Positions 2,861 through 59,178 of a stretch of 64,000 nucleotides of DNA are shown here, one piece after another. Source of the stretch: Cornus controversa. Taxonomy: Eukaryota; Streptophyta; Magnoliopsida; Cornales; Cornaceae. The notes beneath the pieces are model-generated. The model was given only the letters and a program-made list of their open reading frames with translations. It made no database searches and was not told the origin of the DNA. The first letter of the stretch is position 1, and the number at the start of each line of letters is the position of its first letter. Location of the stretch: contig CM048849.1 of the NCBI GenBank assembly GCA_026545225.1, positions 26,856,836 to 26,920,835 on the forward strand, read 5' to 3'. The position numbers and the translations under genes are program-made.

Positions 2861-3053
2861 GGGCGATCGATCCCCCCTTGGATGGGCGATCGATCGCCCA
2901 CCTGCTGGTGGGTGATCTCTTGAAAAACCATGGGGCGATCGATCCCCCTCAAATGGGGCGATCGATCCCCCCCCTGGATGCCTGTTGGTCCCTCCATCGC
3001 CCAAGGTCGACCGAACCTTGATAATTTTGAGTCTCCATCGCCCAGGGTCGACC
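2861..3053 (-). repeat. Palindrome array, word GGGCGATCGATCGCCC, paired at 23 bp
   Basis: Four copies of a GGGCGATCGATCGCCC-like word are centred at 2868.5, 2891.5, 2940.5 and 2963.5, that is two pairs 23 bp apart with 49 bp between pairs. Two GGTCGACC palindromes follow at 3005-3012 and 3046-3053, each preceded by CCATCGCCC. The linkers between copies are unrelated. The array lies after pol and before the third ORF. Element E has the same array at the same place (23217-23407), so this is family sequence rather than chance. Confidence 0.85.
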
Positions 3054-3299
3054 GAGAGCACGATTTTTCACCCGTCTTGAGTCCAAATACCTCGGTACAC
3101 CTCTTGGCATCCTCCGGAAGCAACTTATACATCAAAAACTCAAAGAAAAAACATTAAAACGCAACTAGAATTGAAAGAAAAAGTAAGAAAACTAAAACTA
3201 AAACTTAGAATCAAAGAAAACTAAAGAAATTAAAGGATAGAAATACATACAAAACCTACAATTTAACGTCTGTAGGAGACGATTGACTCTCCGAAGGGA

Positions 3300-5060
3300 T
3301 TAAGTTGGATAGACGGGATCCGTCAAGTCGACGGACTCCACGTCTCTTCTTGGCACACATCCTTCCACACAATGTTTCAACCTTTGGCCATTAACCTTCA
3401 TCAAAGTAGTTTCAAACAATTGCTCATCCGGGAATGAGTCTCGAATAGGTAATGCACCAAATACCGACTCAGACTCGATTCGAGATAAGTGATCCGCTAC
3501 CACATTATCCGTCCCCTTTTTGTCTTTTATTTCCAAATCAAATTCTTGCAGCAATAAAATCCACCGAATAAGACGCGGTTTGGTTTCTTTCTTTGCCAAT
3601 AAGTATCTCAATGCTGCATGATCAGAGTAGACAACCACCTTGGACCCCAATAAATAAGAATGAAATTTGTCCAAGGCAAACACTACAGCTAGAAGCTCTT
3701 TCTCTGTGGTTGTATAATTGAGTTGGGCATCAGAGAGAGTCTTACTAGCATAGTAGATGACATGTGGTCGTTTCTCTTCTCTCTGTCCCAACACGGCTCC
3801 TACTGCATAATCAGAGGCATCACACATGATTTCAAAAGGTATAGCCCATTTTGGAGACAGCATAATTGGTGCAGAGGATAACAGAGACCGAAGCTTTTCA
3901 AAAGCTTTCACACAATCTTCATCAAAGATAAAGGGAACATCTTTAGATAACAAATGGCATAATGGTCGAGCCACTTTACTGAAATCCTTGATGAATCTTC
4001 TATAGAACCCGGCATGGCCTAAGAAAGATCGAACTTGCCTTACTGAAGTTGGATGAGGCAGAGTTGCAATTAGATCGATCTTTGCTTTATCAACTTCAAT
4101 GCCCCTCTCTGAAACAATATGGCCCAATACAATACCTTCTTTCACCATAAAGTGGCTCTTCTCCCAACTAAGTACCAGATTCCGTTCTCGGCACCTTTGA
4201 AGCACAAGTGATAAATTGCTCAAACAATGTTCAAAAGATGATCCAAAAACAGAAAAGTCATCCATAAACACCTCCAAGAATTTTTCCACCATGTCAGAAA
4301 AGATGGCCATCATACACCTTTGGAATGTAGCCGGAGCATTACATAATCCAAAAGGCATACGACGATACGCAAAAGTACCAAAGGGACAAGTGAAAGTGGT
4401 CTTCTCTTGATCTTCTAGATCCATAGCTACTTGGTTATAACCAGAGTAGCCATCCAGAAAGCAATAATAGCTCTGACCAGCTAACTTTTCAAGTATTTGA
4501 TCAATGAATGGAAGAAGGAAGTGATCCTTCCTTGTCATAGAATTGAGCTTTCTGTAATCAATGCAAACACGCCAACCTGTGGCAGTACGTTGTGGAACAA
4601 GCTCTCCCATGGAGTTAGGGACAATGGTAAGACCAAATTTCTTTGGAACCACTTGTGTCGGACTCACCCATGTGTTGTCAGAAATTGGATAAATGATTCC
4701 TGCATCAAGTAACTTGACAACCTCTTTCTTTACCACCTCCTTCATGTTGGGGTTCAATCGCCTCTATGCCTCTCTAGTTGGCTTACATCCTTCTTCCAAA
4801 TGGATTTTGTGCATGCAAACTGAGGGATCAATGCCCTTAAGATCAGCAACACTCCATCCAATTGCTTCACGATGTTGGTATAAAACCTCTATTAAGCTCT
4901 TCTCTTGAATTTCTGTCAGATCAGAGGCAATTATAACAGGAATAGTTTTCTGTGCCCCCAAGAATACATACTTCAATTTGTCAGGCAAAGGCTTCAACTC
5001 TAATTCTGGAGGGGACTCTAATGAAGGCACTAAGGGAGTGCTAGAGAGAAAAAGGTAGTG
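3300..5060 (-). pseudogene. pol: Reverse transcriptase and RNase H of element A, integrase core deleted
   Basis: The frame runs from about 5060 through ELELKPLPDKLKYVFLG, is cut by a TAG at 4761-4763 (CAG is expected in REAQRRLNPNM), and continues to the stop at 3300. The reverse transcriptase shows [15 protein letters not shown]-type [20 protein letters not shown] and the catalytic FMDDFSVFG. RNase H follows with [14 protein letters not shown], the TEKELLAVV box and [10 protein letters not shown], ending in [11 protein letters not shown]. Directly after FPDEQLFE the protein jumps to KVNGQRLKH, which looks like the extreme C-terminus of Athila integrase. The zinc-binding and catalytic domains of integrase are therefore missing by an apparently in-frame deletion, so the copy could not integrate by itself. 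Confidence 0.9.
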
Positions 5061-7565: not shown

Positions 7566-7687
7566 ATATTTACCGAAAGCACCTGAAAAGAAAACAAAAA
7601 CAAAATTAAAAATAAAATATAAAAATTTCCTAAACTAAAAATCCAATTAAAACTAATTCTGTAAAATCCAATCAATCAAATAGATAA

Positions 7688-7705: not shown

Positions 7706-7710
7706 AAAAT

Positions 7711-22960: not shown

Positions 22961-23213
22961 CTTTCAATTCAAGTTGATGATCGTCGCCTACGGACGTTAA
23001 ATTGTAAGATTTGTATGTATTTCTATTCTTTAATTTCTTTAGTGTTCTTTTATTTTTATTTTTATTTTTGTTTTATGTTTTTCTTTATTTTTCTTCCATT
23101 ATTAGTTGCGTTTTAATGTGTTTTCTTTGAGTTTTTGATGTATAAGTTGCTTCCGGGGGATGTCAAGAGGTGTACCGAGGTATTTGGACTCAAAATGGGT
23201 GAAAAAGAGAGGT

Positions 23214-23407
23214 CTCGATCGACCTTGGGCGATGGACCCTCCAAAAATACCCTTCCCAGTCGACCCTTGGCGATAGAGACTCAACAGGCTCCAGCAGGGG
23301 GGATCGATCTCCCCTTTGAAGGGCGATCGATCGCCCCCATTATTTGGCAAAGAGAGGAGACCACCAGCTAGGCGATCGATTGCCCAGCCCATGGGGGATC
23401 GATCGCC
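23214..23407 (+). repeat. Palindrome array of element E, word GGGCGATCGATCGCCC
   Basis: Four GATCGATC-centred palindromes lie at 23305.5, 23328.5, 23377.5 and 23400.5: two 23-bp pairs with 49 bp between them, the same spacing as in A (2868.5 to 2963.5). TCGATCGACC and GTCGACCC elements with GGGCGATGG precede them at about 23215-23275. The position after pol is also the same as in A. Confidence 0.85.
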
Positions 23408-24156
23408 CCAGCCCCTGAAGGCCCAATCTGCTCTATTTTGCTATTTTTGCTCCCTCATGATGCCTTATATACTCCCACTTGAAAATACGTCACTTTGGTG
23501 ACTCTTTATGCCTTTCCAACATCAAAATACACTCTAAAATCTTCCACTTTTATTTCCATACACCTACTTGATCATCATCATTCATCACCATCATCATCCA
23601 TTCCAATCTATTTTTCTCCATCCTCATTAAATGATCAATTTTCTCAAGTTTCTTCTTCACAAAAAAGTAGACTTTGTTTAAAAATTTGGTTGGATTTCTT
23701 TGAGGGGTTTTGTGCTACAAGTTTGGGGGAGGACATTATTATATAATTGTGGACTAGCTGGTTGATTATGATGCACCATTCCGGCTATGACCTAGATGCT
23801 CCGACACATTCTCCTTGATTTTTCGGAGGTAACCATCTTTTGTATTTTTAGTTTTAATTTTTAATTTTTAATTTTCTTTTCTTTATTTTATTTTTCATTT
23901 TGTTTTTTTTATTTAGTTTCAAATATATATATATATATATATATATATTTATTTCATATTTATTTTCACCCATACTATTTCACTTGGTCTTTGGGGTATA
24001 GTGGTTTGTTTTGACAAGTTGAAACATCCAAGTTTGGGGGTGTGCTTTCATTGCCTTCATGCTATTGGTTTGCTATATTTTCTCACTACTACTCCATGGT
24101 CCTAGTAATATCGTTATTACTCTTCTCTATGCTTCGATTGGGTGTACATTGAGGAC
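23408..24156 (+). other. Remnant of third ORF and start of 3' untranslated region, element E
   Basis: The third ORF seen in A is almost wholly deleted. A match resumes near 23785 (TAGATGCTCCGACACATT), then GGTAACCATCTTTTGTATTTTT as in A. An (AT)n run lies at 23922-23949 and a PPT-like AAGTTTGGGGGTG near 24028. The sequence stops at CATTGAGGAC (24156), where D begins. Confidence 0.7.
23922..23949. repeat. (AT)n microsatellite
   Basis: Uninterrupted AT dinucleotides inside the 3' untranslated region of E. Confidence 0.95.
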
Positions 24157-25560
24157 TGATGTGGTCGGAACTAAATTATATTGTAAGCTTAATTTTGCCC
24201 TTTTTATCAAAATATAATTTAACCACTCGCAAGAGCACGAATCTTTGTAGATAAGGTTCTATATAGAGGGTATCGATCCCACGAGGACTAGTCGCAATTG
24301 TCTTAAAGGAAGATTAATTCTACTTTAATTCGAAACACAGATTTTTGAATTTGTGTTTAAAAACTATTTCATGAATGAAATGACAAGAAAAGTAAAGAGT
24401 TTAAAGTTGGGAGAGAGAACTAGGGTTGGTTTCCACCACTAGCCATTCACATGTTCATAAGTGTAGCAAGCATGGGATTCATTAATTAAATGCCTAACAA
24501 TGTCATTAGGCTTGTGACCTCAATGACATATCAAAAGATCAATGTGTGTGCTAACCTATCATAATCCATCTTCAACAAGCATAGCTCTTCAACCTAACTA
24601 ACTACCTAATTACTCTACTCTCTAAGTGAACACTACATGCATCCAAACTACCTTGTCTTGGCATGGTCTATACAAACTAACATCACACATTCATTTAAAC
24701 ACCATTATCTAGCCATCATTTGCACTTCTTGTGGAATATGCAAATGTTGTGCATTCAAGTGACAAAATCTACTCTAAGACAAGAATAAATTCCAAATCAA
24801 ATGAATATATATAAGAGATGTATTTGTGTACATAATCACTAGGCTAAATAATCAACATTTAATTACAAATCCCAAGAGCTACAAAGATGAACAAGTTTAC
24901 ATGGCTAGGGGTTGAAACCAACACCCTAGTAGAAGAGTTAGTTGCTCATGGTTGCCTTGCACCCTTCCATTGATGAAGAAAGTGAAGCTTCTTGGTCTGG
25001 TTCAGCTTCTCCTCCTCCTCTCCCGAAGGTCTCTCCTCTTGTATATTGATGTGTGTGTTGAGAGATATCAGATATGTGTGGCTTTTTGGTACTTTTTGGC
25101 TCCTTTTTCTCCTTTGGGGCCCACCATATATATATATATATATCATTATATATATCTCTTGTATCAAGAAGGCCCCCAAAAGTCTTGTTCAAGTCAGACA
25201 ATCCCCCTAAGTCGTGCAAAAAGGGGGATTTTGTTGCAAGTGGGAGAGCAGGTGAGCAAGTGGCCAAGTGGGCTCTGCAGCATCTCGATTGATCGAGATT
25301 TTGATCAATCAAAATGAGATCTCGATCAATCGAGATTTCGATTAATCGAGATCAACATCTCGATTGATCGAGATGCCTTGGGCTGCATTTTCTGATTTCT
25401 TCTCTTGACTGCAGAAAGCTTCCAACTTTGCTCCATTAACTCTAATACCTGCAAAACATCAAAAACACAAAAATACCGTAAACATATCTCGGTAAACGTG
25501 AAAATGGAACTAACGTATGTAAGAAAGAGGGTTCAAATGCATAGAATTGAACACTTATCA
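24157..25560 (-). repeat. 3' LTR of element D
   Basis: TGATGTGGTCGG... to ...GAACACTTATCA, 1404 bp, with the PPT complement CACCCCCAAACTT immediately to the right (25561-25573). It is clearly different from the A/E LTR but shares its general layout with the G LTR. It includes a (TA)n run near 25131-25157 and the palindrome array at 25282-25374. Confidence 0.88.
25282..25374 (-). repeat. Palindrome array of D, word ATCTCGATTGATCGAGAT
   Basis: Five palindromes (arms ATCTCGAT and ATCGAGAT around TG, CA or TA; one weaker TTTTGATCAATCAAAA) are centred at 25290.5, 25306.5, 25327.5, 25343.5 and 25365.5. The spacings 16, 21, 16, 22 match the 22, 16, 22 rhythm of the G array, which has a different word. 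Confidence 0.85.
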
Positions 25561-29871: not shown

Positions 29872-30865
29872 CCAAGCATTCGGAACCTTACTTCCTATGC
29901 ATTTGGGTTTGAGTGTGATACTTAGTCCATTAGAAAGAGGGTCCAAAAATATTTGATTTAAAAAAAACCACACTCAATTCTGATTCAAAACGAAGAAGTT
30001 ATGCCCATTTGGAGTTTGTGGCAATTTTTGGGGTATGTTGTAAAAAGTGACTTCGACCCATTGAAGTGATTAGTTCAATGCATCAAAGTGACGAGTTCGA
30101 TGGATTGAACATGTATCGTCCAAAAATAGCTCGCGGGACTTTTACAATTCCAAAATCCTGCAGGTTTTTCAATGCATCGAACTGGGAACTTCGATGCATC
30201 AAACTAGGAACTTTGATGCAGCAAACTGGATGTTTCGATGCATTGAACTGTCCAAAAGCTAAAACTTTGCTAATGGTCATTCTTCTTTTTACCTTCTAGG
30301 CCATTTCTACCAACTTAATCCATTCCAACAACCTCCAAATCATACAAGAAAGGAGTCTACATCATTCACAAGTCCTAGATCATGCTCATACCCAAATCAT
30401 ACACCGATATGGGTCATTCTCCCTTATAGACACATTTTATCCAAAAATGAAACTATCCAACAACTATTTTAGTCCATCAAATGAAACTAGATGCTCTTAC
30501 AAGCATTACAAAAATAAGTCAATAGTATTATCATATTTAACAAGCTTATAGTTCAAGCATACACACTAGTTACGTTTGTCCAAAATATAACTACAACTCA
30601 AAGAGAAAGATCTTATGCCATAAGCCAGCATGGATAGCCCCAAAATATACAATATCCCAAAATGTATCAAAATGTTACAAGTCCCATCCGTCATCGATGT
30701 CTTATCTATAAAAGAGTTTAGAATAAGGGGTAAGCACCACTATGACTTAGTAGAGATACCCCAACCCACCTAAGTGCCAACTCGATGCGACCTACATGGA
30801 TACATGTCACAACATTTCACGTATCATTCAACATACACCATGTTTATTCATAACGATGAATATAT
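29872..30865 (-). repeat. Continuation of the C 5' LTR, right of E
   Basis: It continues the LTR interrupted at 19371. It aligns along its length with the F LTR (46040-47100): the AAAAAAAACCACACT block, the array position, the CATAAGCC.GCATGGA block and the TTATCT.TAAA block. It ends near a (TA)n run at 30861-30878. Sequence to the right is an LTR of the opposite orientation (H). Confidence 0.75.
30051..30249 (-). repeat. Palindrome array of C, word TTCGATGCATCGAA, exact 22-bp pitch
   Basis: Seven copies centred on GATGCATC-like cores lie at 30058.5, 30080.5, 30102.5 and 30174.5, 30196.5, 30218.5, 30240.5: runs of three and four at exactly 22 bp. The linkers differ from copy to copy. The array sits inside the LTR, next to the conserved AACGAAGAAGTTATG block. 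Confidence 0.9.
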
Positions 30866-30899: not shown

Positions 30900-31852
30900 T
30901 CATGCTTCATGATTTAAAATAAAAGCAATATCACACACTTGTCTTTCTGCCTGAGTCACGGTTAAGTCAGGTGGATCATTCCTTCTAGGCGTAGTTGTAT
31001 GCTCACCCACTTCTCCCAAAACTTTTTCAAATAAAGCATCGATAGAGGACGATGCTTAGATTGGCTTGAGAAAAAACTTTTGGCATTTTTTTTGGATATG
31101 TTGATAGATGTCCATGCCTGCTCGTGGCATGATGATTTATTTTAGAAATGTTGCTTTAAATTTGAATAACTTTTATGGTATAAGTTTCAAGTGTATTCGC
31201 CATGTGTGGGATATGTGCGACTTTTGAGTAATGAAATGTATGATATATAGCTTTGGATTCCAATGTATATGTTTTAATGGATATGACCACTTGGAGATAC
31301 AAATATTAAGTTTGGATCATTTAAGGATGTCTTGGATCATTTTTATGTTTCACATATTATAGAGAATGTATGCATGTTGTAGATTGAGGATTGAAGGAGG
31401 AATTGTCACAAAATTGACTAAGTGTAAAATAGCATGATTGTTGTCGAAAGGCATTTCGATTGTGCGAAATAACTTTTTCGATTGTGAGAATTTCAATCAA
31501 AATATTTTGATAAAAGAGACCCCAATTCTAGCAGGATCACGATAATACTTCGATGGACCATCGATTAATCGAGACTTTTGATTAATCGAAAGTCTAATTT
31601 TGATCGTGTGAATACCCATTTCGATTGATCGAAGGGTATGTTTCGCACAATCAAAATTTGTAAATTCACAGCTAGACCTTGTATATGTGGCCCTGTGTGA
31701 GGCCTTAGTGAGTGATTGATGTTGACACATACATAGGTGAACGTATGTATATGATTAAGCTTCTGCAATTTTTTATAAGTTGACGTAGTTCATTAGGACT
31801 TAATGGATGGACTCACCCTCGATTCCCAAGAGTCAAAAATTGGGACGTGACA
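30900..31852 (+). repeat. 5'-truncated LTR at the left of H
   Basis: It ends ...AATTGGGACGTGACA, a chromovirus LTR 3' end. Upstream it aligns with the 3' LTR near 38740-38950 (CCTTCT..C.TAG.TGT, TCCC.AAACTTTTT, CATGCCTG..GTGGCATG). The outer half is missing. Confidence 0.7.
31434..31657 (+). repeat. Palindrome array in the H 5' LTR
   Basis: TTTCGATTGTGCGAAA-type words at 31454-31469 and 31476-31491 are 22 bp apart. TCGATTAATCGA, TTGATTAATCGAA, TTGATCGTGTGAA, TTCGATTGATCGAA and TTTCGCACAATCAAAA follow at steps of about 17, 22, 21 and 22 bp. The word is that of element F, mixed with one close to that of D. Confidence 0.8.
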
Positions 31853-34652: not shown

Positions 34653-36398
34653 TGTTCGATGTGCAAAACACGATAAAATATTATGTATTAGTGTTGTTGT
34701 TGTTCTACAATTCAACAAAAGAAAATTTATAAAAACCTACAAATACCCTACTAAAATTAGTAAAGCGGTAAGTAGGGGTAGAACCCACAGAGACTACATT
34801 GGGTTCGTTGTTAAACTATCAAGACCTTATCTAATTTAATTCAAAAATAATTCATTTTATTTGTTTTAAATTAAGGTGCTGAAATTAAATGATATAAAAT
34901 AAAAACATAAATAAATGATAGATAAAATTCAAGAGAGAGAAGTCTAGGGTCTTGACTTCACCACTAGCATCACACCATTGTTGATTGAAATTACATTGGG
35001 AGAAATTCTACAATATGCATAAATAAGATTCATGGAACGATGAACATACAATTAAGGTCTAAGAAATAACCCATCTTCGGTTGGCACGAATCGTCTACCT
35101 AAACTTGGGTGTAGCACAACCCGTCTTTCCTAGGCATGGCCTATCAAAGTCCTTGTCTCATACACACATGTTCACAATGAAATCGTCAAGAGGATATATA
35201 CAAACACTCACTAAGCTACAATCCATCTTCGATTGGCACGAATCGTCTACCTAAACTAGGGTGTAGCATGACTCGTCTTCCCTAGGCATGGACTGTCAAA
35301 GTTATATGTCCATACATGCAATGAAACTTATTGTATAATTATCATTCATTAAAATTTAAAAATAAGAATGAGAGATATTAAATTTATCAAGTTCAGTATT
35401 AAAATCTTCTTATTCTCAGTTTTTTTTTAATCTCTCATGGGAATTATTTGAATTCAATCAAGATAAATATCATCTAAGACAAAACAACATTAAATCAAGA
35501 ATGATTATAAATATTTAAACACAACCATAAATGCTTATCTATGCAATTGTCACTTATTACACAAATGATACAAAATAGTCCTCAAAATGATACAACTATA
35601 TACATAGAAAGAACAATCCCCAAATATAACTCAATCAATAATTATACTTAGCTAGGGCTTCCGTAATCCCCTAGGAAAAAGTTAGCTCCTCATGTCAGTT
35701 GTTCAAGCCTCCCTTTTCTTTCTGTCAATTGTCACGAATCGCCTCCATCTTTTCTCTCTGCTCTCGAATAATACCCTAGTTTTCTCCCTTTTCTCTCTTT
35801 TATTTTGTGAATAAAATAGAAACGGGACACCTAGCCTCCCAAAGTGGCAAATGTGCATAAGAAAATGGCACCTATGCCTCAAAAAGTGGCATTTGCGCCC
35901 AAAAAGTGACATCTGCGTAAATAGGGCAGAAAGGTGACGTAAACGTCCATTTTAGGAAATTTTCGTGAAATATGAAATTGTACAGAATTGAATTTCCTTC
36001 AACCAAATAAAAGTTTGGATCATTTTGACAGTCATGTACAGAGTTATGATCTGAATACCAAAACCGGTCCAGAACTTTTTAGGCCCGACTTGGCCCAATC
36101 TTTAATGTGAATAGGCCCATACTCCTTTTCTTCATTTAAATTCATTTCCAGCCCACTTCTTCAATTTACTTAATTTGGATCTTCAATATAAACACACTTC
36201 TCATGGGTCAAGCTTTAGCTTCTTACTAAAATAGCACCATCTGTAGCCTGATTACACCATTATTAATCATAATTACCCTTAATCACCTGAAATCATAAAA
36301 AGATTAAAATTATTAATAAAAATACAAAATAAATATTACTAAGACACTAATTCATATAATTTTAGGGGCATTGAATACGCAACATTCATTACTTATCA
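34653..36398 (-). repeat. Solo Athila-type LTR I
   Basis: TGTTCGATGTGC... to ...CATTACTTATCA, 1746 bp, similar to the J LTR (54919-56402) over most of its length. The flanks ATAAC (34648-34652) and ATAGT (36399-36403) are a decayed TSD. Removing the LTR restores FAYNNSYQANFEMAP in the H integrase. Confidence 0.88.
35841..35926 (-). repeat. 21-bp array in LTR I, word GTGGCANNTGCGC
   Basis: Four units share (A)AAGTGGCA..TGCG. TGGCA (or TGACA in the last unit) starts at 35845, 35866, 35887 and 35907, spacing 21, 21, 20. J carries the same array with the same spacing at 55847-55926. Some units are palindromic (GGCACATGTGCC in J). Confidence 0.85.
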
Positions 36399-37078: not shown

Positions 37079-39652
37079 CAAGGTGAGGAGGTTATAAAGA
37101 CCAGGACTAATTTTGATCGATTTTCTTTTTATTTATCATTTTTTGTCATAAATAAATTTAAAATGATGTTATGTGTGTTTTAAATGTGGAAAACATGTTC
37201 AAAAACTTGTTTAGAGGTTCAGAAAAGTTTTGGGAGCGTTTCAAAAAATTTAAGATTTTCAAGTCATTGGGGCCTGGAACGCGAGTCTGGTAGGCTCAAA
37301 AATTTGAAATGTTTTTGAGAAATATATATATGTTTTGGTGGTTTTAGAACATTTGAAATGTTTTAGTAGATATGGAAGTGATTTCAGAGCCGTAACCCCT
37401 TTCAAAATAAAAAGGGAGTCCGGGAGGTACATTAAGTGACTTGGGGGTAAAATGGTCATTTTACACTTTATATATTGTAAATAGACATAAGTTTATATTG
37501 TTGGACAAATTTTAAAAGAGAGACGATCAGCCATTAGAGCCCTCTCTAAGTTCTTCATCTTCTACCTTCATTTTGAGAGCCTTAGAGTGAGATTTGGGGC
37601 TTGCCCCAATAATAAAAGTTGTTCTCCTCTCTTTCCTCTTCAAGTTGGTGGATTCAAAGTCACATTTTGCAAACATTCAAAATTTGAGAGGAGTTAAAGT
37701 TTGGATTCGGGTCTTGTTAAAAAATGAAGAGTTGTTCTCCTTACCCCAATCTATAATCCATTAAAAAGAAAGTGCATTTTGCTGGAGTTTGAAGCTTAGT
37801 GATTTCTAGAGTTTGCTAGGACAAGCTTCAATCTTGAGGTAGGGGTGCTTCTTCCCACTTATTCATCAATTCCTAGGTCTTGGTGAGTTTGGGAATAGTT
37901 TGGTTGTGTTGGCATGTATGGGAAAATGTGGGATTTAATGATTTTTTTTCCCTCTTTTATTGTGAATTATACATGTTTATGCTATTCATATTATGATATA
38001 GGATGTGGTCAATATATACATGCAATATGTATAGAATTTTGAGCATGTTTGGAAATATGAGGAGTTGTATGCATACTTGAATTATATGCATAATTGAGAA
38101 TATATATGTTATTATATGTTGTATGTGAGAATGTGAGGATGAAATGAATACTAGAAATCATATAAAGCAGGAATGTACATTGAAGAAGATTAAAAATATG
38201 CTATGTGTTATATGTGCCTAATGTGCATATATGTGTATATATAAGAGGATTGTCTAAGTGAGCCATACATGGGGTTTAGAGTTGCCCAATCATGTTATGG
38301 AAGTGCTGAAATTAACCACTATAGTATGACTATCGGAGTTACACAATCATACTAAGGCTAATGCCTAAAAATCAAAGTTGTCCAAAAATCTTGTGACCAT
38401 CGGAGTTGTCCACTCACAATGGCAAGACCAATATATTATCGGGAATGTATGATTCTTTGGATTTGTCCAAATCATATGGGTGTCATCAGAGTTATCCAAC
38501 ACCACATGATCGTTAGAGTTGACCAATCATGTCTATGTATCAGATTATGACTGAAAAAGATATAAATATCGTTATGCTTATGTGTTTAAATGTTAAGCAT
38601 GGTCAATGGATTAAATACATACATATTTAATTGCATTTGCGTTTATTTGACATGAGAACATTGAATATGCTATGTAGAGTAGCAACCTTGTGATTGCATA
38701 TCATATAGGTCGGTGTCGAGTCGATGCCTAGGTGGGATGGGATATTCCTTCTGACCTAGTTGTTTTCCTTACCCCTCTTCCCCAAACCTTTTTATAGATA
38801 AGGCACCGTTGGTAGATGGAACTTGATTGGCCATGGGGAGCACTCAGTAGTATTTTTTATGTATTTTTAGGATTATATATATTGTTATTCATGCAGGCAT
38901 GTGGCATGTTGAAACATTTTAATTGATATGTAATTTTGGACAAAGACTTATATATATAAATGCATGTGGAGTTGTATAATTGGTCCTATAATTTGAAATC
39001 TTGGGGATTTGAGGAAAAACATGTGTAACAATATACTTTTGGATTATATTCATGCAATATATGGATTTTGTGGAGTATTAACTACGTTTAGAGTCGTGGG
39101 TGAATGTATGCTACTAGGAAATGGACATGGACTTGAGTTGTTCAGATTTTGACCATTCTGGAGAATTTTGGTCGCTTAGTGTGTCTGCAGCAGCCAATCA
39201 AAAGTGTGAGATACTGAGAGATTGTAATTGAGATAACCAGTTTCAGATGACTAGATGAGGATTTCAGCTGGCTGAAAGCACCCTTTTAGCCTACTGAAAC
39301 TACCCCTAAGCCAACCTACAGAATTGGAATTAAATTCTAGTGTGTTGGCAAACTGGAAATTAGCTGAACCCAGGTTTTAGCTGATCGAAGGGGGTTTCAG
39401 CCTACTGAAACTTGACTGAGTTGGAATTTTATAAAATTTGGGATAAAAATGAATATGTATGGATGTACAGACCAATGTGGGGCCCATTGGGATGAATAGT
39501 GATAAGTATACGCACATGTAATCGTGTACGCATGGTTAGCTTTCGCGGTTGTAAGATTTTGGGATAGTCTATGTGGTTAAATGGATGGATTCACTCTTGG
39601 AATTTGGGCCTGAGAATGGGGATTCCAATGACTTAGATTTTGGGCCGTCACA
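37079..39652 (+). repeat. PPT and 3' LTR of chromovirus H
   Basis: The PPT CAAGGTGAGGAGG (37079-37091) is followed by an LTR from TTATAAAGACCAGG (37092; TG expected at the start) to TTTTGGGCCGTCACA (39652), 2561 bp. Its first 200 bp align with the starts of the K LTR (42338) and the F LTR (48524 leftward). LINE sequence begins right after it. Confidence 0.82.
39241..39411 (+). repeat. Palindrome array in the H 3' LTR, word TTTCAGCCTACTGAAA
   Basis: Words with arms TTTCAG and CTGAAA are centred at 39248.5, 39269.5 and 39291.5 (21 and 22 bp apart), and again near 39362.5, 39382.5 and 39402.5 (20 bp apart). The array lies about 240 bp before the LTR 3' end, the position used in the other chromovirus LTRs, but the word differs from that of the H 5' LTR. 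Confidence 0.75.
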
Positions 39653-45672: not shown

Positions 45673-45831
45673 GCTCTGATACCATGTTGTCACGCCCCAG
45701 AATCTGGATCGCTGAGACTTCCCCGAACCGACCCCAAATCCCAAGTATGAACCCGTTCACTCAATCCCGTGAACTATCTCGACCACACTCATGCGATAGT
45801 ATCCATCTGTGATACCATGCCATAACGCCCC
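45673..45831 (-). other. Duplicated PBS plus LTR tail of F
   Basis: An intact PBS complement GCTCTGATACCA at 45673-45684 is followed by the LTR edge TGTCACGCCCC at 45688. A decayed second copy, TCTGTGATACCA at 45806-45817, is followed by TGCCATAACGCCCC at 45818. The spacing of about 130-133 bp equals that in C. Confidence 0.82.
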
Positions 45832-48524
45832 GATTTCCCCACTCCCGAAAGATCGGAGGTTAACTGTCCATTAAACCTAGTGAAACCTCATTACACTTAT
45901 TTACTATAGAAGCTTAACTCAATTTTTACATATAAATGCACACAAATCCACCTCAACCAATCCCCATGGGCCCTACATTGAATCATACACCTTAGTGGAA
46001 ATTTACTTGTCTACACTTTCAAGAATCACTCATTTCCAAGCCTCAAAATATACTGTGTTTGGAATATGAAACTGGGACCTACACCATTGGATAGAGAATT
46101 CAAAAATACTCAATTTAAAAAAAACCACACTATATTCCGATCTAGAACGAAGAAATTACGTCGAAACGAAGTTTGGAAAAATGCTATGAATAGTAATTTC
46201 GATTGTGCGAAATGCCAATCTCGATTGTGCGAAACTGGCATCTCGATTGTGTGGAAAAAGTATCTCGATTGTGTGAAGATTTCACCCTCTCAGAACCTCA
46301 GACCTGTAATATTTCGCACAATCGAAATGAGGGTATCGATTGTGCGAAATTCTCCCTGTCTGGACCCTAAAAATCATCATAAATCATCACCCCTTCGCAC
46401 AATCGAAATGGGGGCTTCGATTGTGCGAAATGAGCTTTTCGCATGATCGAAATGCTCTCCCCAGGTCCTCCAACAACCCTATATATGGTCTATTTGAAGC
46501 CCAATCCACATTCTATCATCCTAGAACCTCTCATACATGGTCTATAACATAAATGAAAGATTCTAACATCAATTACAAATGATATAACATAATACATATA
46601 CACAAATATATGCGTTTAAATCTCAAATCTTTCATAATCATAGAAAATTCCTAGGTTCACAATACACCCAAAACTCAAGTGAATAAACCATCCTTGATTC
46701 CCAAAATTCATTTCCATAACACCATACATATAAAAAATCAAACGGTCCCTTAAGCATATATTCATCAAGTCTCAAATGAAGGAAGCCATTATACATATAT
46801 TTCTCAAAAGTCTCCTTCCTATAAGTGTGGCATTTACATTTGGAGTTCATAAACAAGAGAAGATACAAATGTAAAGGCAACACTACAACTATGGTCAACA
46901 TGCCACAAGCCGGCATGGACATTTATCTACATCCCAAAAAGATCAAAAATCCAAAAAGAGAACCCAACAAGGTCCATTGAGCTAATCATGTTTCGTCCTC
47001 CATCGGCGCCTTATCTGAAAAAATTTATATAAGTAGGGGGTGAGCAACACTGCGGCTCAGTAGGAATGATCCACCCAACCCCACTCTAACTCAAGCGGCC
47101 ATGCATGGATGCATACGAAATCACTACATGTCTACATGACAAGTATACATGCTTTTAACCCATAAACAATCACGTTTTTCAAATCATGTGTGATGCTGCA
47201 CATCTCAATGCATTTGCATACATAGGTATATATATATCAAATTGAGCAAGCCACAATACATATATATAACTCACGCCACATAAATCCAGAAATTACTTCA
47301 ATGGGGACTAGCTTATCACACCATCCATAGTAAGGATCTCTTCGGCACCCAAACTCTGCTTACGCTTTATCGGGTTGCTAACCCGAAGGGAACGCCTCCT
47401 CTTGGCTAAGTTTTGAGTCTTTCACCCTAGGGACCATTCCCTCACCTTAATTCTCAATGTTGTCACGCCCCAAAAACTCATTTTTCATATAGTGCACATA
47501 ATCACATCAATGCACTTATTCCACACCATGGATGTATTTTTTTGTCAAATCAATGCATTTTCCTTTCACCTCAAGATTGTCACAATGACATCACACTCAT
47601 ATCATGAAAATCATCACGCTTATGCATTTCACAATAAAAATCATATATTTCATGCACAAGTCTATAAAAACTCACATTTTTCATGTTTTCACCAAATGAA
47701 CACATTTTTCATCAAGAACATTCATAGTCTCATTTGCACATACACAACATACATAAGCCCTAACTAACATGTTAGACACATCCATGTGCATAAATCACAT
47801 TTTCATACATATATAAATATACACAAAACCCTAAACTCAAGAAATTCCAATCTATCTTTCATGTCACAAATATGTGACATATAGAATCAAAGTAAAGATG
47901 AGTCTAGCACCCCTACCTCAAATCCTATACTTTGAATCCAACTTTGAGAAATCCCAGCCTTCTCAACTTCACAAAATGTGGACTTTGATCAGTTCAAACC
48001 GAAGCCCTCAACGCCCTCTACACACTTTCCTTCTTCGGGATCTTCCAAATCACACTTCAAGTGACCTAGAATCTAGAGAGAAGGGAGAGAGATGAAGTGG
48101 GAGATGTAGAGAGAGAGAGATCTATAAAATGAAATATCCCCTTTTTGATATTTATCTCAACCCTAGGGGCATGAAATGACCATTTTACCCCCAGCCACTT
48201 AATGTACCTTCCCGACCTCGGAATTAATTCCCAAAAATTTCGTTGGACTCAAAATTGCTTCCTTAATATCCTAAATATTTCATTTAGTTCATAATCAAAA
48301 GTAAAATTTCTCGGATTTCCTAGACCCACTTAACCTCATCCCGGGGCTCTAGTTGACCAAAAAGTCAAACTTTTCCAAAAGTTGCCAAAACTTTCTAAAA
48401 TCATATTTCAACCTTCTAAACATGTTGCCTGAATTTAAAACATGTTAAATATCATTTAAAATTCATTTAAAGTAATAAATGACAAAAATTAAAAAACTAG
48501 TCAAAATTGGGCACGGTCTCTGCA
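45688..48524 (-). repeat. 5' LTR of chromovirus F
   Basis: TGTCACGCCCC... to ...ACGGTCTCTGCA, about 2.84 kb, aligning with C (29872-30865), H (37092-39652) and K. It contains the 22-bp array at 46197-46452 and, on the minus strand, a CTTATATAAATTT stretch near 47022-47035 that could be a TATA box. ORFs within it are not called. Confidence 0.85.
46197..46452 (-). repeat. Palindrome array of F, word TTTCGATTGTGCGAAA, exact 22-bp pitch
   Basis: Nine 16-base words lie in three blocks: centres 46204.5, 46226.5, 46248.5, 46270.5; then 46319.5, 46341.5; then 46400.5, 46422.5, 46444.5. Within every block the step is exactly 22 bp, even where the word switches orientation (TTTCGCACAATCGAAA). The 6-base linkers differ (TGCCAA, CTGGCA, AAAGTA with ordinary drift). 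Confidence 0.92.
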
Positions 48525-49861
48525 AGCATGGTGAAGGAGGTGAGCTTAATTTGAATAGTGAAATCTATTCGATAAAAGGATGAGGTATTCTGGTAAAGAT
48601 AACCCTCATGAGGTATTTCGGTAAAGATACCCTCATAGATTGATGTGTAGTGGGGTATTTCGGTAAGAGTATCCTTTAAGAGATATTCTAGTGAAAGAGG
48701 AGGGATTGGTCATCTACGGGAATTGGAGACCAATGGATGTGTGGAGAGGATGAGGTAATTGTGCATATCATGACACATTTACACGTTGCTTATGATGTGG
48801 ATGTTATAAATTGATATTTGTGCAACATGATTAAATGCAAACATATGTTTATATCGAATTCATGGGACTTGCGAAATTATGTTTTAGACATTCCTACTGA
48901 GCATGTGGTTGCTCATCCTATGAGGATTAACTCTTTTCAAGAAATGATAATGAGGTAGTGGAGTCTTCCCAATAGGCGTGGAGTGTAAACGCGTTTTTAA
49001 ACATATGTTGTTCATGACTTATGATTTATTTCATTATAAGCATGGTACTAAGTATGGTAAAATGCTAGACATTTTATATGATAAGTTTTCATCTATGTTT
49101 ATTTCTACATGTACAACTTGTGAGAATAGTTGTGTTAATTAGTTGTATTTTCATTAATGTCCAAGCATGTTTATGAAATTTCAACATTCCATTCATGATT
49201 GGGATGTGATTGGATGAGTTTTGTGTTTTGGAAATATATGTGTATGAGGATTGGTATAAGTTTTGGGCAAAATATACCAAAAAGGAGTTTCCAGGTGGAA
49301 ATAGTCAACTGCTCCTTTAGATAAGTCGATTGTTTTTAGCAAATCATTTTTTAGCTTTTTAGAGTGATAAAGCAATCAACTGCTCCTTTAGATAAGTCAA
49401 CTGCTATAGATTTTTTTTTTCAAATATGAGGAAATAATCGACTGCTCCTTTGGATAAGTCGACCGCTATAGATTTTCAAATATGTTAAAGTAGTCGACTG
49501 CTTATTCAGATAAGTCGACTATTTTTGGTAGAGCATTTTTGAGTTTTTTAAAGCGGCAAAACAATCGACTGCTCCTTTAGATAAGTCAACTGCTAGAGAT
49601 TTTAAATTATTTTTAAATAGGTACAACTTTGTCATCTTAAACCTGATATAAGTGATGCTTTTTTTGAAATTAAGTATTTTGGAATCCTCTTTCTGTTGAT
49701 ATTTGTTGATGTTAAATTGCACACATACATGAGTGTGTACGTAATTAAGATTCTACGGTAATTATGAGTTAAGATGGTCATTTAGGGTTTAATGGGCAAG
49801 TTCACTCTCGGGATTTGGACTTGGACTGAGGGAGTCTTGGCGGTCTGAATTTCGAAATGTG
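48525..49861 (+). repeat. Second part of the K LTR
   Basis: AT-rich LTR sequence with several GAGGTATTTCGGTAAAGATA-like repeats near 48580-48690 and the K array at 49303-49591. A block at 49650-49690 (TTTTTTTGAAATTAAGTATTTTGG) is homologous to the array-flanking block of C and F. It ends at 49861, where J is inserted. Confidence 0.75.
49303..49591 (+). repeat. Paired-palindrome array of K, AGTCGACT pairs 21 bp apart
   Basis: Five pairs of TCGACT/TCAACT-type sites start at 49305/49326, 49376/49397, 49438/49459, 49494/49515 and 49565/49586, each pair exactly 21 bp apart, with GCTCCTTTAGATAA-like sequence between partners. Distances between pairs vary (71, 62, 56, 71 bp). The full palindrome AGTCGACT appears in the fourth pair. 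Confidence 0.88.
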
Positions 49862-50365: not shown

Positions 50366-50374
50366 AATAGTTGT

Positions 50375-50679
50375 GCAGTGCCTAGGTTTATTAGGGTTTC
50401 GAATTGATCTATGTAGCAAGCTTTCAACCAGTGACTCCCAAACCAAATGGTTTTCGGGCACTAGGTTTCAAGATACCCTAACGGACCTAATAACTTGAAC
50501 CAAAACGTCCACAAACCACAAACTAACTAATGACGCAATGCCTAGGTTTATTAGGCTTTCGAATTGATCCATGTAGTAAGCTTTCAGCCAATGACTCCCA
50601 AACCAAATAGCTTTAGGGCACCAGGTTTCAAGATACCCCGACGGACCTAATAACTCGAACCAAAACGGCCACAAACCAA
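50375..50679 (-). repeat. Tandem duplication of the conserved 3' untranslated block in J
   Basis: Two copies, 50375-50519 and 50535-50679, period 160 bp, both starting GC(A/G)ATGCCTAGGTTTATT-like and containing CCAATGACTCCCAAACCAAA-like sequence. The block is single in A, B and D. The copies differ at roughly one base in ten, so the duplication is not recent. Confidence 0.85.
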
Positions 50680-54567: not shown

Positions 54568-54895
54568 GTAAGGACTAAGAATTAATTAAAAAATAAATAA
54601 ACAAACTAAATAAATAAAAATAAAATAATAAGAAAAGAAATTAAAATAAAATAGATATAAAGAATGATAACAAATTAAAGCAAAGTACTAACTAGAATAA
54701 ACAAGCACAAGAATTTGAATATGAAAAGCTCACAGAGAGTTATGATGAATTCCACTCCTCTGTTCATGGTTTATAACCAAAAGCACCAGTGCTCGAAAAA
54801 AAAAAACAGAACAGAAAAGAATAAAGAAAAATCCTAACTTAACAATTAAATTAAAACTAATATTTAAGACTAGGCACCAAAATCATTTAAGCAAG

Positions 54896-54913
54896 TCCCT
54901 GGCAACAGCGCCA
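54896..54913 (-). other. Primer-binding site of element J (tRNA-Asp)
   Basis: TCCCTGGCAACAGCGCCA matches the tRNA-Asp 3' end at 16 of 18 positions. Both differences are transitions at former CpG sites. The LTR edge is 5 bp away. Confidence 0.9.
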
Positions 54914-54918
54914 AAAAT

Positions 54919-56402
54919 TGATGTAGTGTCAATTTTACATAACCACTCGCAATAGAACAAGTCCTCGTAGGATAGGGCAATATAGAGGGTGTCGAACCTC
55001 AAAGACTTGCAAGGTTAAATTGTTTTGTTACTTAGTCTTTAAGTTAATTCTAAAATAATTGGAAAATAATTGTTGATGTTTGATCTTCAATTTAATTGAG
55101 AAAATTAAAATTATTTGTAAATTTATTTTATGAAATTTAATCAGGAAGAGAAAGTCCTGGGAATTGGCTTCACCACTAACCTTCCGACAATGACAATTGT
55201 ACTCATTTGTGACGTTTACTCTATGCATTTAGAAAAGAATGGCTACAAGCCCAATTTAATTATATCAAGAGGATTCGTTCAATATTTAACTAAGCATAAC
55301 TCATCTTTGTTTAGCATGGCCTATACATCTGACTAACTAATGATATGATAACCCATTTTTGCTTAGTATGAATTATCAAAACTATAAGTTGAACGATCTG
55401 TGAAAACTATTGTATAACCCATCTTAACAAAATCACAGAAGTTGAAAAGAACCAAACCCTAATCATGCAAACTTACGTTCATTCTACAAGAACAAGAGTC
55501 AATATGCAATGACATAATCCATTAAAATTCAAACCAACAGCACAACTATTGTTTATGTCTTGGTTATATAATCAATGCACAAATTAAATAATTTTCAAAT
55601 TAATATACAAATTAAAATATTGAAAGATAGGTTAGGGTTACATCACTTCCCCGGAATGGTGTTTAGCCACTCATGATCGGAGGTCCAGGCTTGAACGATG
55701 ATGAAGTCACCATCTTCTTGCCCATATTGTCACAAATCGCCTCGTATATCTCTTTGTGTTTCTCCCCTCAAGAATATCCTCATTTTTCTTTATTTTTTCC
55801 GTTTTTTACTTTGCGAAGAAAACACAAACGGGACACCTGGGCTCCCAAAGTGGCAAATGCGCATAAAACAATGGCACATGTGCCTCGAAAAGTGGCATTT
55901 GCGTCTAAAAAGTGGCAGCTGCGCAAATAGGTAAGAAATGTGCCATAAACGTCCGTTTTAGGAAATTTTTGTTAAATATGAAAATGTACAGAATTAAATT
56001 TCTTTCAACTTACATGAAGTTTGGGTCATTTTAACAATTGTGTATGGAGTTATGGTCTGAATACCAAAATGGGTCTAGAACTTTTTAGGTCTAAATTAGC
56101 CCAATCTTCAATGTGAATAAGCCCGTTCTCCTTTACTTTATTTAAATTCATTTTTGACCCATTTCTTCAGTCCATTTAGTTTGGATCTTCAATATAAACA
56201 TATCTCATGGGTCAAACTTCAGCTTCTTACTAAAATAGTGCCATCTATAGCCCAATTGCGCCATTATTAATCAGAATTACCCTTAATCACCTAAAATCAT
56301 GAAAAGATTAAAACTATTAATAAAAACATGAAATAAATATTATTAAGACACTAATTAATATAATTTTAGGGGCATTGAATATGTAACATTATTTGCTTAT
56401 TA
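54919..56402 (-). repeat. 5' LTR of element J
   Basis: TGATGTAGTGTC... to ...ATTTGCTTATTA, about 1484 bp, where CA is expected at the right edge. Homologous to solo LTR I. It carries the 21-bp array at 55847-55926. Confidence 0.87.
55847..55926 (-). repeat. 21-bp array in the J LTR, word GTGGCANNTGCGC
   Basis: Four units with TGGCA at 55851, 55872, 55893 and 55913. One unit has the perfect palindrome GGCACATGTGCC and another GCAGCTGC. Same steps (21, 21, 20) as in LTR I. Confidence 0.85.
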
Positions 56403-56847
56403 TCGTCACAGATTGGTATCAGAGTACTAGGTTGAATACCTAAGGGTGACGGGTAAGGGTTGTATCACGTGTAGATTTGAATTGGTTAGAACCTTGAGTT
56501 TGGTAACCTAGAAACAGGTGTTGACATGACATAGTTAATACAAGAACTTATGTGCATGAAAAACGTGCTTACATGATAAAAATGTTAAGTGTTTATGTTA
56601 TGACAACATGTGATCTAATATGTGTTACGTGTTGAAATGTAAGTGTACTTATATGATAACATGTGTATATGTTATGTGTTGAGGTGAGGTGAGAACATAT
56701 TTGTTTGATTAAATGTGTTTAGAAAAGTATGCCTACGTGCTGCGTGCCAAATGATAACATATTATCATTTGAGTAGTAGTTTGATCATGTTGATTATATA
56801 GTATGTGATAACTTGTTATGTTGACCTATATCTTGAATGATAAAAAC
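56403..56847 (+). other. LTR tip, PBS and leader of chromovirus K
   Basis: TCGTCACA closes the K LTR. TGGTATCAGAG at 56414-56424 is the initiator tRNA-Met PBS. The 420-bp leader is rich in ATGTGTTA-like repeats and has no ORF. Confidence 0.82.
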
Positions 56848-57795
56848 ATGTCACCAAGACAACGAGGAGGGTAGTTAGGAGAAGAGCTCCTGAGGGGGAC
56901 CGTTTGATTAATGACTTGGCCGCGACTCTCAGAGACTTTGTGCGAACAACCACTAATGAGGTGCAACAACTAATAGAAAATGAGTTTGAAATAAGGTTTA
57001 AATTGATCACTCGCTTTAAGAAATTGATGCCTCCTAGCTTTTAAGGGAGTTCTGATCCGTTGATGGCAAATAATTGGTTGGAGCAAGTGGAGAAACACTT
57101 AAAGATGATGTCTACACCCAATGATGGCATGAAAGTCATTCTTGCTACATACTTATTTTCGGGTGGAGCTAAAGTTTGGTTTAAGTCGGTAAGTGACCAA
57201 TACAATGTCGAGACAATGCCATAGGAAGAGTTCAAGACTCTATTCCTTGAGCATTATTTTCCTAAACCAAAGAGGAGGGCTTTGAGAAAAGAGTTTGAGG
57301 ACTTGGTTCATGATGGGACGACTATGATAGAATATGAGAACAAGTTCATTTCTCTTTCACGCTTTGCACCCGAAGTACTGAAAGATAAGGAGGAAAGACG
57401 TGGAGGTTCGTCAAAGGCCTTCACCATTCGGTTAAGCTATATGTGTCCATTTTAAGATTGAAAGTGTATGTCAACGCGGTAGAAAAGGCCTTGATAGTAG
57501 AAGCTAAAGTGAAAGATAGCCAAGAGAAAAGAGAGGCATTAAGGCAAAGCAAGGCTTTGATAGTAGCTTCAGAGGGACATGTAAGGAAGAAGTTCAAGAG
57601 TGGTTCTTCTAATATAGTGGGTTCGGTGGGACAACCAATGGCACATTCTACACCTATTATTCGCTTGCCCTTAACATCTACTAGACCAGAGAGGGGGTGC
57701 TACCAGTGTAAATAACTGGGACATCTCAAGATAAATTATCCTATGCATCAGTCTAGAACGGTGACATGCTTTGGTTGTGGACAGCAAGGGCACAT
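56848..57795 (+). pseudogene. gag: Gag of chromovirus K, cut by G
   Basis: The main frame reads GDRLINDLAATLRDFVR, MPPSF-stop-GSSDPLMANNWLEQVEKHL, LFSGGAKVWFKSV, EEFKTLFLEHYFPKPKRRALRKEF and YENKFISLSRFAPEVL. It shifts near 57450 to LKVYVNAVEKALIVEAKVKDSQEKREA. The first zinc knuckle, CYQCK-stop-LGHLKINY, is broken. The second, CFGCGQQGHI, is interrupted by the G LTR at 57796. Confidence 0.82.
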
Positions 57796-59178
57796 TGATA
57801 AGCGTTGAATGTTAGACATTCTCACGCCTTTACTTATGTATTTTAATCTCATAGTTGCATATATTGTATAGTTTTACGTGTTTTATGTTTTGATGATTTC
57901 AGGTTCAAATTCAGAATTCAGCGCAATTCGACTCTTTTATCAATTCAAGAATGCATTCCTATGTCCTATCATGCTTCATAGAAATTTCATATCAAAGAAT
58001 AGTGAATGTCGTGTCAAGACCGAAGTCAGAAATTTGACGAGTTGAAGATCTGCAAAAGAAGGAAAGATCGATGCATCAAAGTCACAGCTACGATGCATCG
58101 CAGCTTCGATGCATCAAAATTACTACTTCGATGTATCGCCCAATCCTGCAGAAGATATTTTTGTGCAAATATTTTCTTCACTTGCCACTTGTCCAATTTT
58201 GCTTGGATAAAGCCTTGAACGGAATTTTTGTGATATTTGAGCCTCAAATCAGATATATAGCTAGGAAATATGTAATATAAAAGAAAGGGAACACAATTCT
58301 TATTTTAAAGACCATATATAGAATTCTAGAGAGAAAAATTAAAGTTCTAAAGAGGGAAAGCTTCAAATAGGGCTTTGTAACGCCTTGAAGACCATTTTGA
58401 GCATGGGATCATCTCTATCTATGAAGTGTTTCCAGCCCACCATGATCAACTAATTCTTCTTTGGGGTTTTGACAAACCTTAGTCTTGTAACTATGTTCTA
58501 ACTTCAATGAATTAGGGATTTTTATGTACTTTTGTGTATATATACCTTGCCTTGAGCCTTATGAGTAATATAAGTTTATAAATTCTTTATGTTCATATGA
58601 GTAATTTATCTTTTTTATCTTAGAATGCTTACTTTTCTCATATGGTTTTCAAACACTTGTAGTTCCACAAGGACTACATGTGATGGCTTTGTACTAGTTT
58701 TCACTATAACATGCATAGCTAGATTTGCATAGTCCATGCTAAGAGATGGTAAATTAGCTACACTTAGTTAATTAGGAATTTAAGTAAGTAGGTAGGTAGG
58801 GAATTTACACGTATCGAAGATGGATTATAGTATTTTAAGGTGCATGTATCCTCTTAGTACACAATTGTATGAATTTCCCCAATTTATTAGAAGTTTGGCA
58901 TACTATGAGGCTAGTGGAGAAGTCTCAAACCTAGTCCTTTACTCTTCTCTCAAACTTCGTGTTTTAATTATTTTTTATGCTTTTAAAGTAGAGTAAGAAA
59001 ACAACCAACACTTGGTTGTGATTTGAAAGAGAACCAACCCTCAACCTTTAGCGAATTATCCCTACATAGTCTCTGTGGGATCGACACCCTCAACTTAGAG
59101 CCTTATCCTTCAAGGATTCATTCTATTGTGAGTGGTAAATATAAATTGCAAAGCATCGCCTTCAAAACACGCACAACA
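57796..59178 (+). repeat. 5' LTR of element G
   Basis: TGATAAGCGTTG... to ...CACGCACAACA, 1383 bp, followed 5 bp later by the PBS. It contains the GATGCATC array at 58065-58140. The beginning is homologous to the A/E/D LTR starts. Confidence 0.9.
58065..58140 (+). repeat. Palindrome array of G, word TTCGATGCATCGAA
   Basis: Four cores GATGCATC (the last GATGTATC) are centred at 58073.5, 58095.5, 58111.5 and 58133.5: steps 22, 16, 22. The word is that of chromovirus C, an unrelated lineage, whereas the spacing rhythm is that of Athila-like D. Confidence 0.88.

Follow-up and report, generated by a model that had tools for sequence, protein, structure and literature searches.

Arrays of palindromic words at a near-two-turn pitch in Tekay- and Athila-like LTR retrotransposons of Cornus controversa: candidate clusters of sites for a dimeric host protein

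What are the arrays of short palindromic words, repeated at a near-constant step, that recur in LTR retrotransposons of Cornus controversa? Eleven of them lie in one 64,000-nucleotide stretch of the genome (the window), from which the whole case for them is drawn. The initial annotation of this DNA gave coordinates for the arrays that proved correct on re-check, while the two arrays to which it gave the single label H belong to different families and are here called H1 and H2. It had also described short palindromes or inverted-arm words throughout; clear dyad words are present in eight of the eleven arrays, but those of I and J are imperfect and K is built of weak half-words of the GTCGAC type. 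As A and E, and likewise I and J, are homologous pairs, the independent arrays number about nine. All spacings below are in base pairs.

Array A, 2861..3060, minus strand: four strong GGGCGATCGATCGCCC-type words, spacings 23, 49, 23, with weaker GGTCGACC words.
Array E, 23209..23408, plus strand: homologue of A.
Array D, 25282..25375, minus strand: five CTCGATNNATCGAG-type words, spacings 16, 21, 16, 22.
Array C, 30051..30247, minus strand: seven TTCGATGCATCGAA-type words, spacings 22, 22, 72, 22, 22, 22; linkers partly conserved.
Array H1, 31434..31656, plus strand: TTTCGATTGTGCGAAA words mixed with TCGATTNATCGA-like words.
Array I, 35844..35945, plus strand: imperfect GTGGCANNTGCGC words, spacings 21, 21, 20.
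Array H2, 39241..39411, plus strand: TTTCAG-N4-CTGAAA words, spacings 21, 22, 91, 20 with two weak matches removed; CpG-poor.
Array F, 46196..46452, minus strand: nine TTTCGATTGTGCGAAA words in both orientations, spacings 22, 22, 22, 49, 22, 59, 22, 22.
Array K, 49303..49600, plus strand: GTCGAC-type half-words, three of nine steps at 20–23; longer tandem similarity.
Array J, 55850..55950, plus strand: homologue of I.
Array G, 58065..58140, plus strand: four TTCGATGCATCGAA-type words, spacings 22, 16, 22.

The hosts of the arrays are LTR retrotransposons, nested in one another. Tekay-like LTRs (Del and Tekay are one lineage) contain C, F, K, H1 and H2, Athila-like LTRs contain D and G, Athila-like elements contain A and E after pol, and a short LTR assigned to neither lineage contains I and J. 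The open reading frames (ORFs) of the window match Retrotrans_gag, Ty3_capsid, RVP_2, RVT_1 and RT_RNaseH, a domain set that we take to be that of Ty3/gypsy, I and J standing outside this ORF-based assignment. D lies 186–279 bp into an Athila-like LTR whose start is 25560, and G 270–345 bp into one whose start is 57796, with a PBS at 59184. The Tekay-like LTR of C is split by an Athila insertion at 29872, that of H1 ends at 31852, and that of F has its 3′ end at 45688–45698 and a PBS at 45673; a PBS-like site (56414, one mismatch) follows J. The Athila-like element of E has LTRs at 19372–20802 and 28440–29871, with TATATA 58 bp downstream of the array, and A is flanked by two ORFs, one for RT–RNase H and one that weakly matches Transposase_32. 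The idea of an array in every LTR of the window was rejected, as another Athila LTR family, with five copies in the window, has no array in the three copies whose U3 was read.

RT–RNase H ORF, 3300..4763, minus strand: upstream of array A.
ORF with a Transposase_32 Pfam match, 1739..2311, minus strand: 26.3 bits (cut-off 45), in env position downstream of A, env identity putative.
TATAAA, 2820..2825, minus strand: 36 bp downstream of array A.
Conserved LTR module, 46084..46158, minus strand: directly downstream of F; also at C (29927–30001) and K (49615–49694).

This module, 15–50 bp downstream of the array, is common to F, C and K, and another, upstream of the array, is common to F, H1, H2 and C. 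A TATAWA motif lies at most 130 bp downstream in five of the eleven arrays, namely all four of Athila type (A, E, D and G, of which A and E are homologous) and H2, the chance of one within 150 bp of a random point being 0.187; for C, F, H1, K, I and J it is at least 269 bp away, the distance for C crossing the nested insertion.

How regular is the step? With K left out and weak matches removed (two in A, two in E, two in H2 and three in J), ten arrays have 43 steps between neighbouring words, of which 32 are 20–23 bp, compared with a mean of 7.6 and a maximum of 18 in 20,000 draws of random placement; this null covers the 43-spacing set only, and keeping every match gives 34 of 61 when K is included and 31 of 52 when it is not. 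Steps of exactly 22 bp make up six of eight in F and five of six in C. The constant 20–23 bp pitch first described is borne out for the arrays taken together, but not by K (3/9) or by D and G taken singly, for which the spacing test is non-significant (P 0.30 and 0.25), and the 16-bp steps that had been reported in D and G are indeed there. Perfect-arm dyads number 31 in 2,271 bp of array, versus a shuffle mean of 8.4 (maximum 15). The proposed autocorrelation of palindrome centres against shuffles, run on the window without reference to particular words, gives modest support: nine dyad pairs are separated by 20–23 bp versus 3.0 expected (maximum 8), three of the nine within arrays, but the greatest excess is at 10–12 bp, about half the pitch (12 versus 2.7, maximum 7; seven within arrays). 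Another dyad-pair run gave 28 pairs versus 18.4 (maximum 34) at threshold 6, five versus 0.1 (maximum 1) at threshold 7 and zero at threshold 8. A further autocorrelation, with its greatest excess at lags 8 and 11 and z of 3.5–6.0 at lags 20–23, was not relied on, since AT-rich simple repeats contribute to it.

Could the step be a relic of neutral tandem duplication, with short repeats produced by slippage and decaying without function? Tandem Repeats Finder reports periods of 20–22 in C, F, I and J, and K has its longer tandem similarity. When only DNA between two words is counted as linker, and with word identity raised because the words were chosen by similarity to a consensus, words and linkers score 0.86 and 0.36 in F (linkers over six), 0.97 and 0.00 in A and 0.87 and 0.14 in E (one linker pair each), and 0.77 and 0.17 in H1. 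Linkers reach 0.42 in H2 and 0.50 in G (one pair), which are intermediate, 0.58 versus 0.81 for words in the right part of C, 0.75 versus 0.71 in its left part (one pair), 0.62 versus 0.67 in I and 0.62 versus 0.74 in J. The whole repeat unit, linker included, is thus dissimilar between copies in F, A, E and H1, similar or nearly so in C left, I and J, and between these in C right, G and H2. The initial annotation had held that linkers are not conserved, that spacing and dyad symmetry are kept while they change, and that simple tandem duplication fails to explain the pitch; this fits F, A, E and H1, where linkers have diverged, but not C left, I and J, and since linkers are fairly similar in C right too, tandem duplication may account for C, I and J. 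Alignment of A with E finds 58 of 62 word positions identical and 111 of 137 between words (Fisher 0.03), the flanks (204 of 226) being no different from the words (0.62); between I and J, words (45 of 52) and flanks (499 of 590) do not differ, and this lack of excess word conservation also speaks for duplication. As a general explanation it is nonetheless quite unlikely: words exceed linkers by far in F, A, E and H1 (similarity-picked words, and one linker pair each in A and E), F holds words in both orientations at an unchanged 22-bp step with free linkers, arrays occupy matching LTR positions in several families, and a core is common to lineages.

That core is CGAT-N2-ATCG (CGATNNATCG), whose ten matches in the window all fall inside arrays A, E, D, H1 and G (expected 0.07), thereby spanning Athila- and Tekay-like elements; its arm is the most enriched among all 256 arms at that spacer, the core having been picked after the arrays had been seen. 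Exact matches are absent from C, F, K, H2, I and J. All 12 window matches of TCGATTGT fall inside F, K and H1. The words had been thought family-specific, which they are only in part, since the CGAT-N2-ATCG core recurs across families.

These features suggest that the arrays are clusters of dyad-symmetric sites for one or more dimeric DNA-binding proteins of the host, enhancing transcription, a reading that we consider probable, if only just. The LTR arrays would lie within U3, and those of the A and E elements ahead of an internal promoter after pol; a dimeric host protein, or closely related ones, would bind the dyad words, the spacing would let adjacent dimers touch or share one face of the DNA, and the bound array would raise transcription of the element. 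Binding on one face is plausible, but a single-face rule is broken by the steps of 16–17 bp that occur in D, G and H1, which would rotate the site. The matching LTR positions across families, with D and G at similar Athila-like offsets, were counted in favour of protein sites, as were the nearby TATAWA of five arrays, the confinement of CGATNNATCG and TCGATTGT to arrays and the two word orientations of F at an unchanged step. The Sirevirus repeated motifs, discussed below, are one precedent, and the ONSEN LTR bound by HSFA2 is, in the partial text available, another. Counted on the other side were the distant TATAWA of six arrays, the conserved linkers of C left, I and J and the modest autocorrelation, together with the post hoc choice of CGATNNATCG and its lack of exact matches in six arrays, the array-less Athila LTRs and the 16–17 bp steps.

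Alternatively, the words may act in RNA, as stem-loops for packaging or dimerisation of the element transcript, or as hairpins processed by the host into small RNAs. In eight of the eleven arrays the element strand is predicted to fold far more strongly than shuffles (z −5.2 to −9.7; −4 or below in one of 60 background segments), with the folding of F, D and C also run separately, and the element strand scores below the antisense strand in eight of eleven, K and I being opposite and J tied. The available parts of PMC5311732 and PMC10760457 describe an excess of mapped small RNAs over the palindrome-rich portions of LTRs in maize Sireviruses. However, palindromic DNA of any kind folds, so these z-scores cannot separate an RNA role from protein sites; I, J and K fold weakly, and imperfect arm pairs in eight arrays have no G–U bias (21 GU versus 16 AC, p 0.51), so that of the stem-loop role first suggested the strong folding stands but an RNA-specific pairing bias was not found. 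As a hairpin needs only complementary arms, and folding has no need of a core common to lineages, that core would favour a sequence-specific protein, and a role in RNA is judged unlikely.

Base composition bears on a further possibility, that a protein of the element or the host binds the arrays and keeps the element free of DNA methylation, as VANC does for VANDAL. The CpG observed/expected ratio exceeds the outside value of 0.46 in ten of eleven arrays (0.66–1.95) and exceeds that of the array's own flanks in nine, an uncharacterised ORF lies near array A, and dense, short non-coding motifs that turn over between families resemble the VANC targets of the Mutator-like VANDAL elements as far as PMC5735166 was available. 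VANDAL elements, however, are DNA transposons whose recognising protein is element-encoded, their motif is not described as palindromic in that paper, the main text of which has no “palindrom-” word, and VANC21 motifs are described there as arrayed in the same orientation. The ratio of A is no higher than that of its flanks and that of H2 is 0.11, and protection from silencing seems very unlikely. Plant Del LTRs have a similarly variable CpG-rich 5′ part with CpG islands, but the words “palindrom” and “tandem” are absent from the text of PMC4029996 as available, and eudicot Del elements are described there as lacking islands.

Is the design new? No described element class with this property had been recognised, an impression that must be withdrawn, since the repeated motif (RM) of Sireviruses (Bousios et al. 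2010; PMC2829016, as available) has most of these properties: its palindromes are peculiar to each family, lie ahead of the TATA box in the LTR and ahead of env, and fall in CpG islands. As such a design was described in 2010 in other plant elements, the present arrays extend, by analogy, a known kind to Ty3/gypsy lineages, in which the core is of CGAT type and the pitch near-constant. Both have palindromic, multi-copy words that vary by family. Sireviruses, however, are Ty1/copia, whereas the elements here are Tekay- and Athila-like and Ty3/gypsy by ORF domains, I and J outside that assignment; the RM core is CGG-CCG and that of the present words is of the CGAT/TCGA type (CGG-N0..10-CCG has three window matches, zero in arrays); and the available text of PMC2829016 makes no mention of a pitch such as the 20–23 bp found here. 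RMs number at least eight and up to 32 per element, and the arrays hold 4–9 words each, counted per array rather than per whole element (nine in F, 4–7 in the other palindromic arrays). With regard to the RM position upstream of TATA, TATAWA lies within 130 bp of the LTR arrays D, G and H2 but not of C, F, H1, K, I and J; with regard to the additional RM copies upstream of env, A lies between pol and the ORF in env position, a putative env at most, with its weak Transposase_32 match; and with regard to the CpG islands, ten arrays have a raised CpG ratio, a ratio rather than formal island criteria. Two words of A are one mismatch from the Vitis RM CGGTCGACCG. The Tnd-1 RM ACAATCGATTGT (Table 3 of PMC2829016), which also lacks the CGG-CCG core, contains TCGATTGT, the word of F, K and H1; its full 12-bp word has zero window matches at 0 or 1 mismatch and eight at two mismatches, one of them in an array (K). 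Among the papers listed by literature searches, PMC2829016 was the only one recognised as a description of this design; a literature search with six words matched one of them, in a paper on curcumin synthase.

No relative was found in viral contigs, whether the query was the Tekay-like gag, the Athila-like RT or an RT alignment; PBS-based patterns gave one match and zero matches there, and a protein search with gag gave one match. A scan of genome contigs gave nine loci, of which L001 and L002, in bacterial assemblies, are 99.6% identical over 9,025 bp, both carry a 79% identical RT and look like plant contamination. Neither Tandem Repeats Finder nor a recurrent-word detector found a palindromic array in these two, a negative that covers the internal region only, as they have no self-match showing LTRs. 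The other seven loci are 35–40% identical, their plant origin not established, and gave no recurrent word except two in L005. The detector is blind to small arrays: on the window it picked up A, E, D, C, H2, F and K, as well as two unrelated stretches, but not H1, I, J or G.

A broader proposal, which is tentative and which we would rate as doubtful, is that different Ty3/gypsy lineages in this one genome have converged on arrays with a CGAT-N2-ATCG type of core at a near two-turn pitch, because one dimeric host protein, or a small family of them, recognises such arrays cooperatively. The flanks and centres of the words would change from family to family, so that each element had an enhancer tuned to itself or an escape from silencing, and the Sirevirus RMs would be the Ty1/copia branch of the same design. 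Should the design hold genome-wide, palindromic arrays described as specific to Sireviruses would prove to be more widespread among plant LTR retrotransposons, and the core that the lineages have in common would serve as bait in a search for the protein by which these elements are driven or silenced.

The window is plant DNA built of nested LTR retrotransposons: LTRs and pol fragments recur within it on self-comparison, its ORFs match gag, protease, RT and RNase H families, and flowering plants are the source of the named proteins among the matches listed (120 out of 7,980 related to the RT ORF). Primer sites agree with known patterns, and the names Tekay-like and Athila-like derive from the primer site, the ends of the LTRs and the order of the ORFs rather than from a tree. 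A 160-bp tandem duplication (50375-50678, 90% matching) lies within an Athila internal region.

All eleven arrays of short palindromic words that the initial annotation had located in this DNA (A, C, D, E, F, G, H1, H2, I, J and K) are present at the coordinates given. In ten arrays, 32 of 43 spacings between adjacent words are 20-23 bp, whereas random placement of the same words gave a mean of 7.6 and a maximum of 18 in 20,000 draws; for this test, K was set aside, as were the weak hits of A, E, H2 and J (nine in all). With every hit, and without a null model, the count is 31/52, or 34/61 with K added. Taken singly, the arrays gave spacing P values of 0.00005 (C, F), 0.002 (H2), 0.004 (H1) and 0.02-0.04 (A, E, I, J), and D and G were not significant (P 0.30 and 0.25). 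The proposed pitch of 20-23 bp is modestly raised in a word-agnostic dyad autocorrelation of the whole window (9 vs 3.0, maximum 8), which has a bigger excess at 10-12 bp (12 vs 2.7). The sample is one window with about nine independent arrays.

In eight arrays (all except I, J and K), 224 of 275 arm positions are Watson-Crick paired, a count that falls to 69 (maximum 101) with the axis shifted by 3-7 bp but that in part restates the selection of the words as palindromes; the choice of words and of core was post hoc. The linkers, compared only on DNA between two words, had been described as unconserved, which is borne out in F (similarity 0.36 vs 0.86 for words), H1 (0.17 vs 0.77) and, with one linker pair each, A (0.00 vs 0.97) and E (0.14 vs 0.87). 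H2 (0.42 vs 0.72) lies between the extremes, as does G (0.50 vs 0.77, one pair), and the description does not hold for the right part of C (0.58 vs 0.81), its left part (0.75 vs 0.71, one pair), I (0.62 vs 0.67) or J (0.62 vs 0.74). Between the homologous arrays A and E, identity is 58/62 in words, 111/137 between words (Fisher 0.03) and 204/226 in flanks (Fisher 0.62 against words), with 2, 18 and 9 gap columns excluded, respectively; between I and J, also homologous, it is 45/52, 19/23 and 499/590.

In element orientation, Tekay-like LTRs hold C, F, K, H1 and H2. One module 5' of the array is common to F, H1, H2 and C (pairs F-H1, F-H2 and C-H2), and a second, 3' of the array, to F, C and K, at 38, 50 and 15 bp; the conserved block downstream of these three could be part of a promoter. 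Arrays A and E lie 3' of pol in Athila-like elements, followed by TATAAA after 36 bp and TATATA after 58 bp, respectively, and A then by an env-position ORF with a weak Transposase_32 match; I and J sit in a short LTR. The arrays are not universal, since the three U3 regions read of a five-copy Athila-type LTR family contain no palindromic array.

46084-46158, conserved block downstream of array F, containing GTGTGGTTTTTTTTAAAT
29927-30001, conserved block downstream of array C, containing GTGTGGTTTTTTTTAAAT
49615-49694, conserved block downstream of array K
186-279 bp into an Athila-like LTR, array D
270-345 bp into an Athila-like LTR, array G
19372-20802, Athila-type LTR, five-copy family
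28440-29871, Athila-type LTR, same family
14453-15905, Athila-type LTR, same family
7711-9216, Athila-type LTR, same family
11532-13007, Athila-type LTR, same family

Plant-like Athila sequence (RT 79% identical) also occurs in two bacterial assemblies (Solirubrobacter, Geminicoccus), as contigs that are 99.6% identical to each other across 9,025 bp and are probably contamination; no palindromic arrays were found in the internal region of this related element that they cover.

The words vary by family, as the initial annotation held, yet many have a common core. The CGAT-type core CGATNNATCG has 10 matches in the window against an expected 0.07, each of them inside A, E, D, H1 or G, and shows the top enrichment of all 256 arms at its spacer; all 12 matches to TCGATTGT fall inside F, K and H1. 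H2, I and J lack the common core. In 10 of 11 arrays, CpG observed/expected is higher than outside (0.46), and in nine it is higher than in the array's own flanks (exceptions A and H2), as expected, since the words themselves bear CpG. Array H2 (39241-39411), with TTTCAG/CTGAAA words, is CpG-poor (0.11), in contrast to the other ten.

The closest described class is the repeated motif (RM) of Sirevirus elements, presented in PMC2829016 as family-specific palindromes in CpG islands, upstream of TATA in the LTR and upstream of env; the paper terms RM Sirevirus-specific and absent from its 'classic' retrotransposons, named as Ty1/copia. Compared with this description, the window arrays are similar in general look, but they differ from it in element type and in the CGG-CCG core. 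Two words of array A (3004-3054) are one mismatch off the Vitis Sirevirus motif CGGTCGACCG. Relative to the open-licence papers searched, palindromic arrays in Tekay- and Athila-like elements appear new, and so do their nearly constant pitch and their core of CGAT type.

Roles as RNA hairpins or small-RNA sites are possible but less likely. Predicted folding is strong in 8/11 arrays, but this follows from the palindromes themselves, and a pairing bias specific to RNA is not seen (21 GU, 16 AC). That absence favours putative dimeric-protein sites within an enhancer, the reading judged likeliest and, from sequence, slightly better than evenly probable; it is also favoured because the pre-promoter position of part of the arrays, the dyads and the cross-lineage core fit together, and because array F combines inverted words, constant pitch and free linkers. 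A dimeric protein would occupy the dyad words, with the array acting as an enhancer of its host element.
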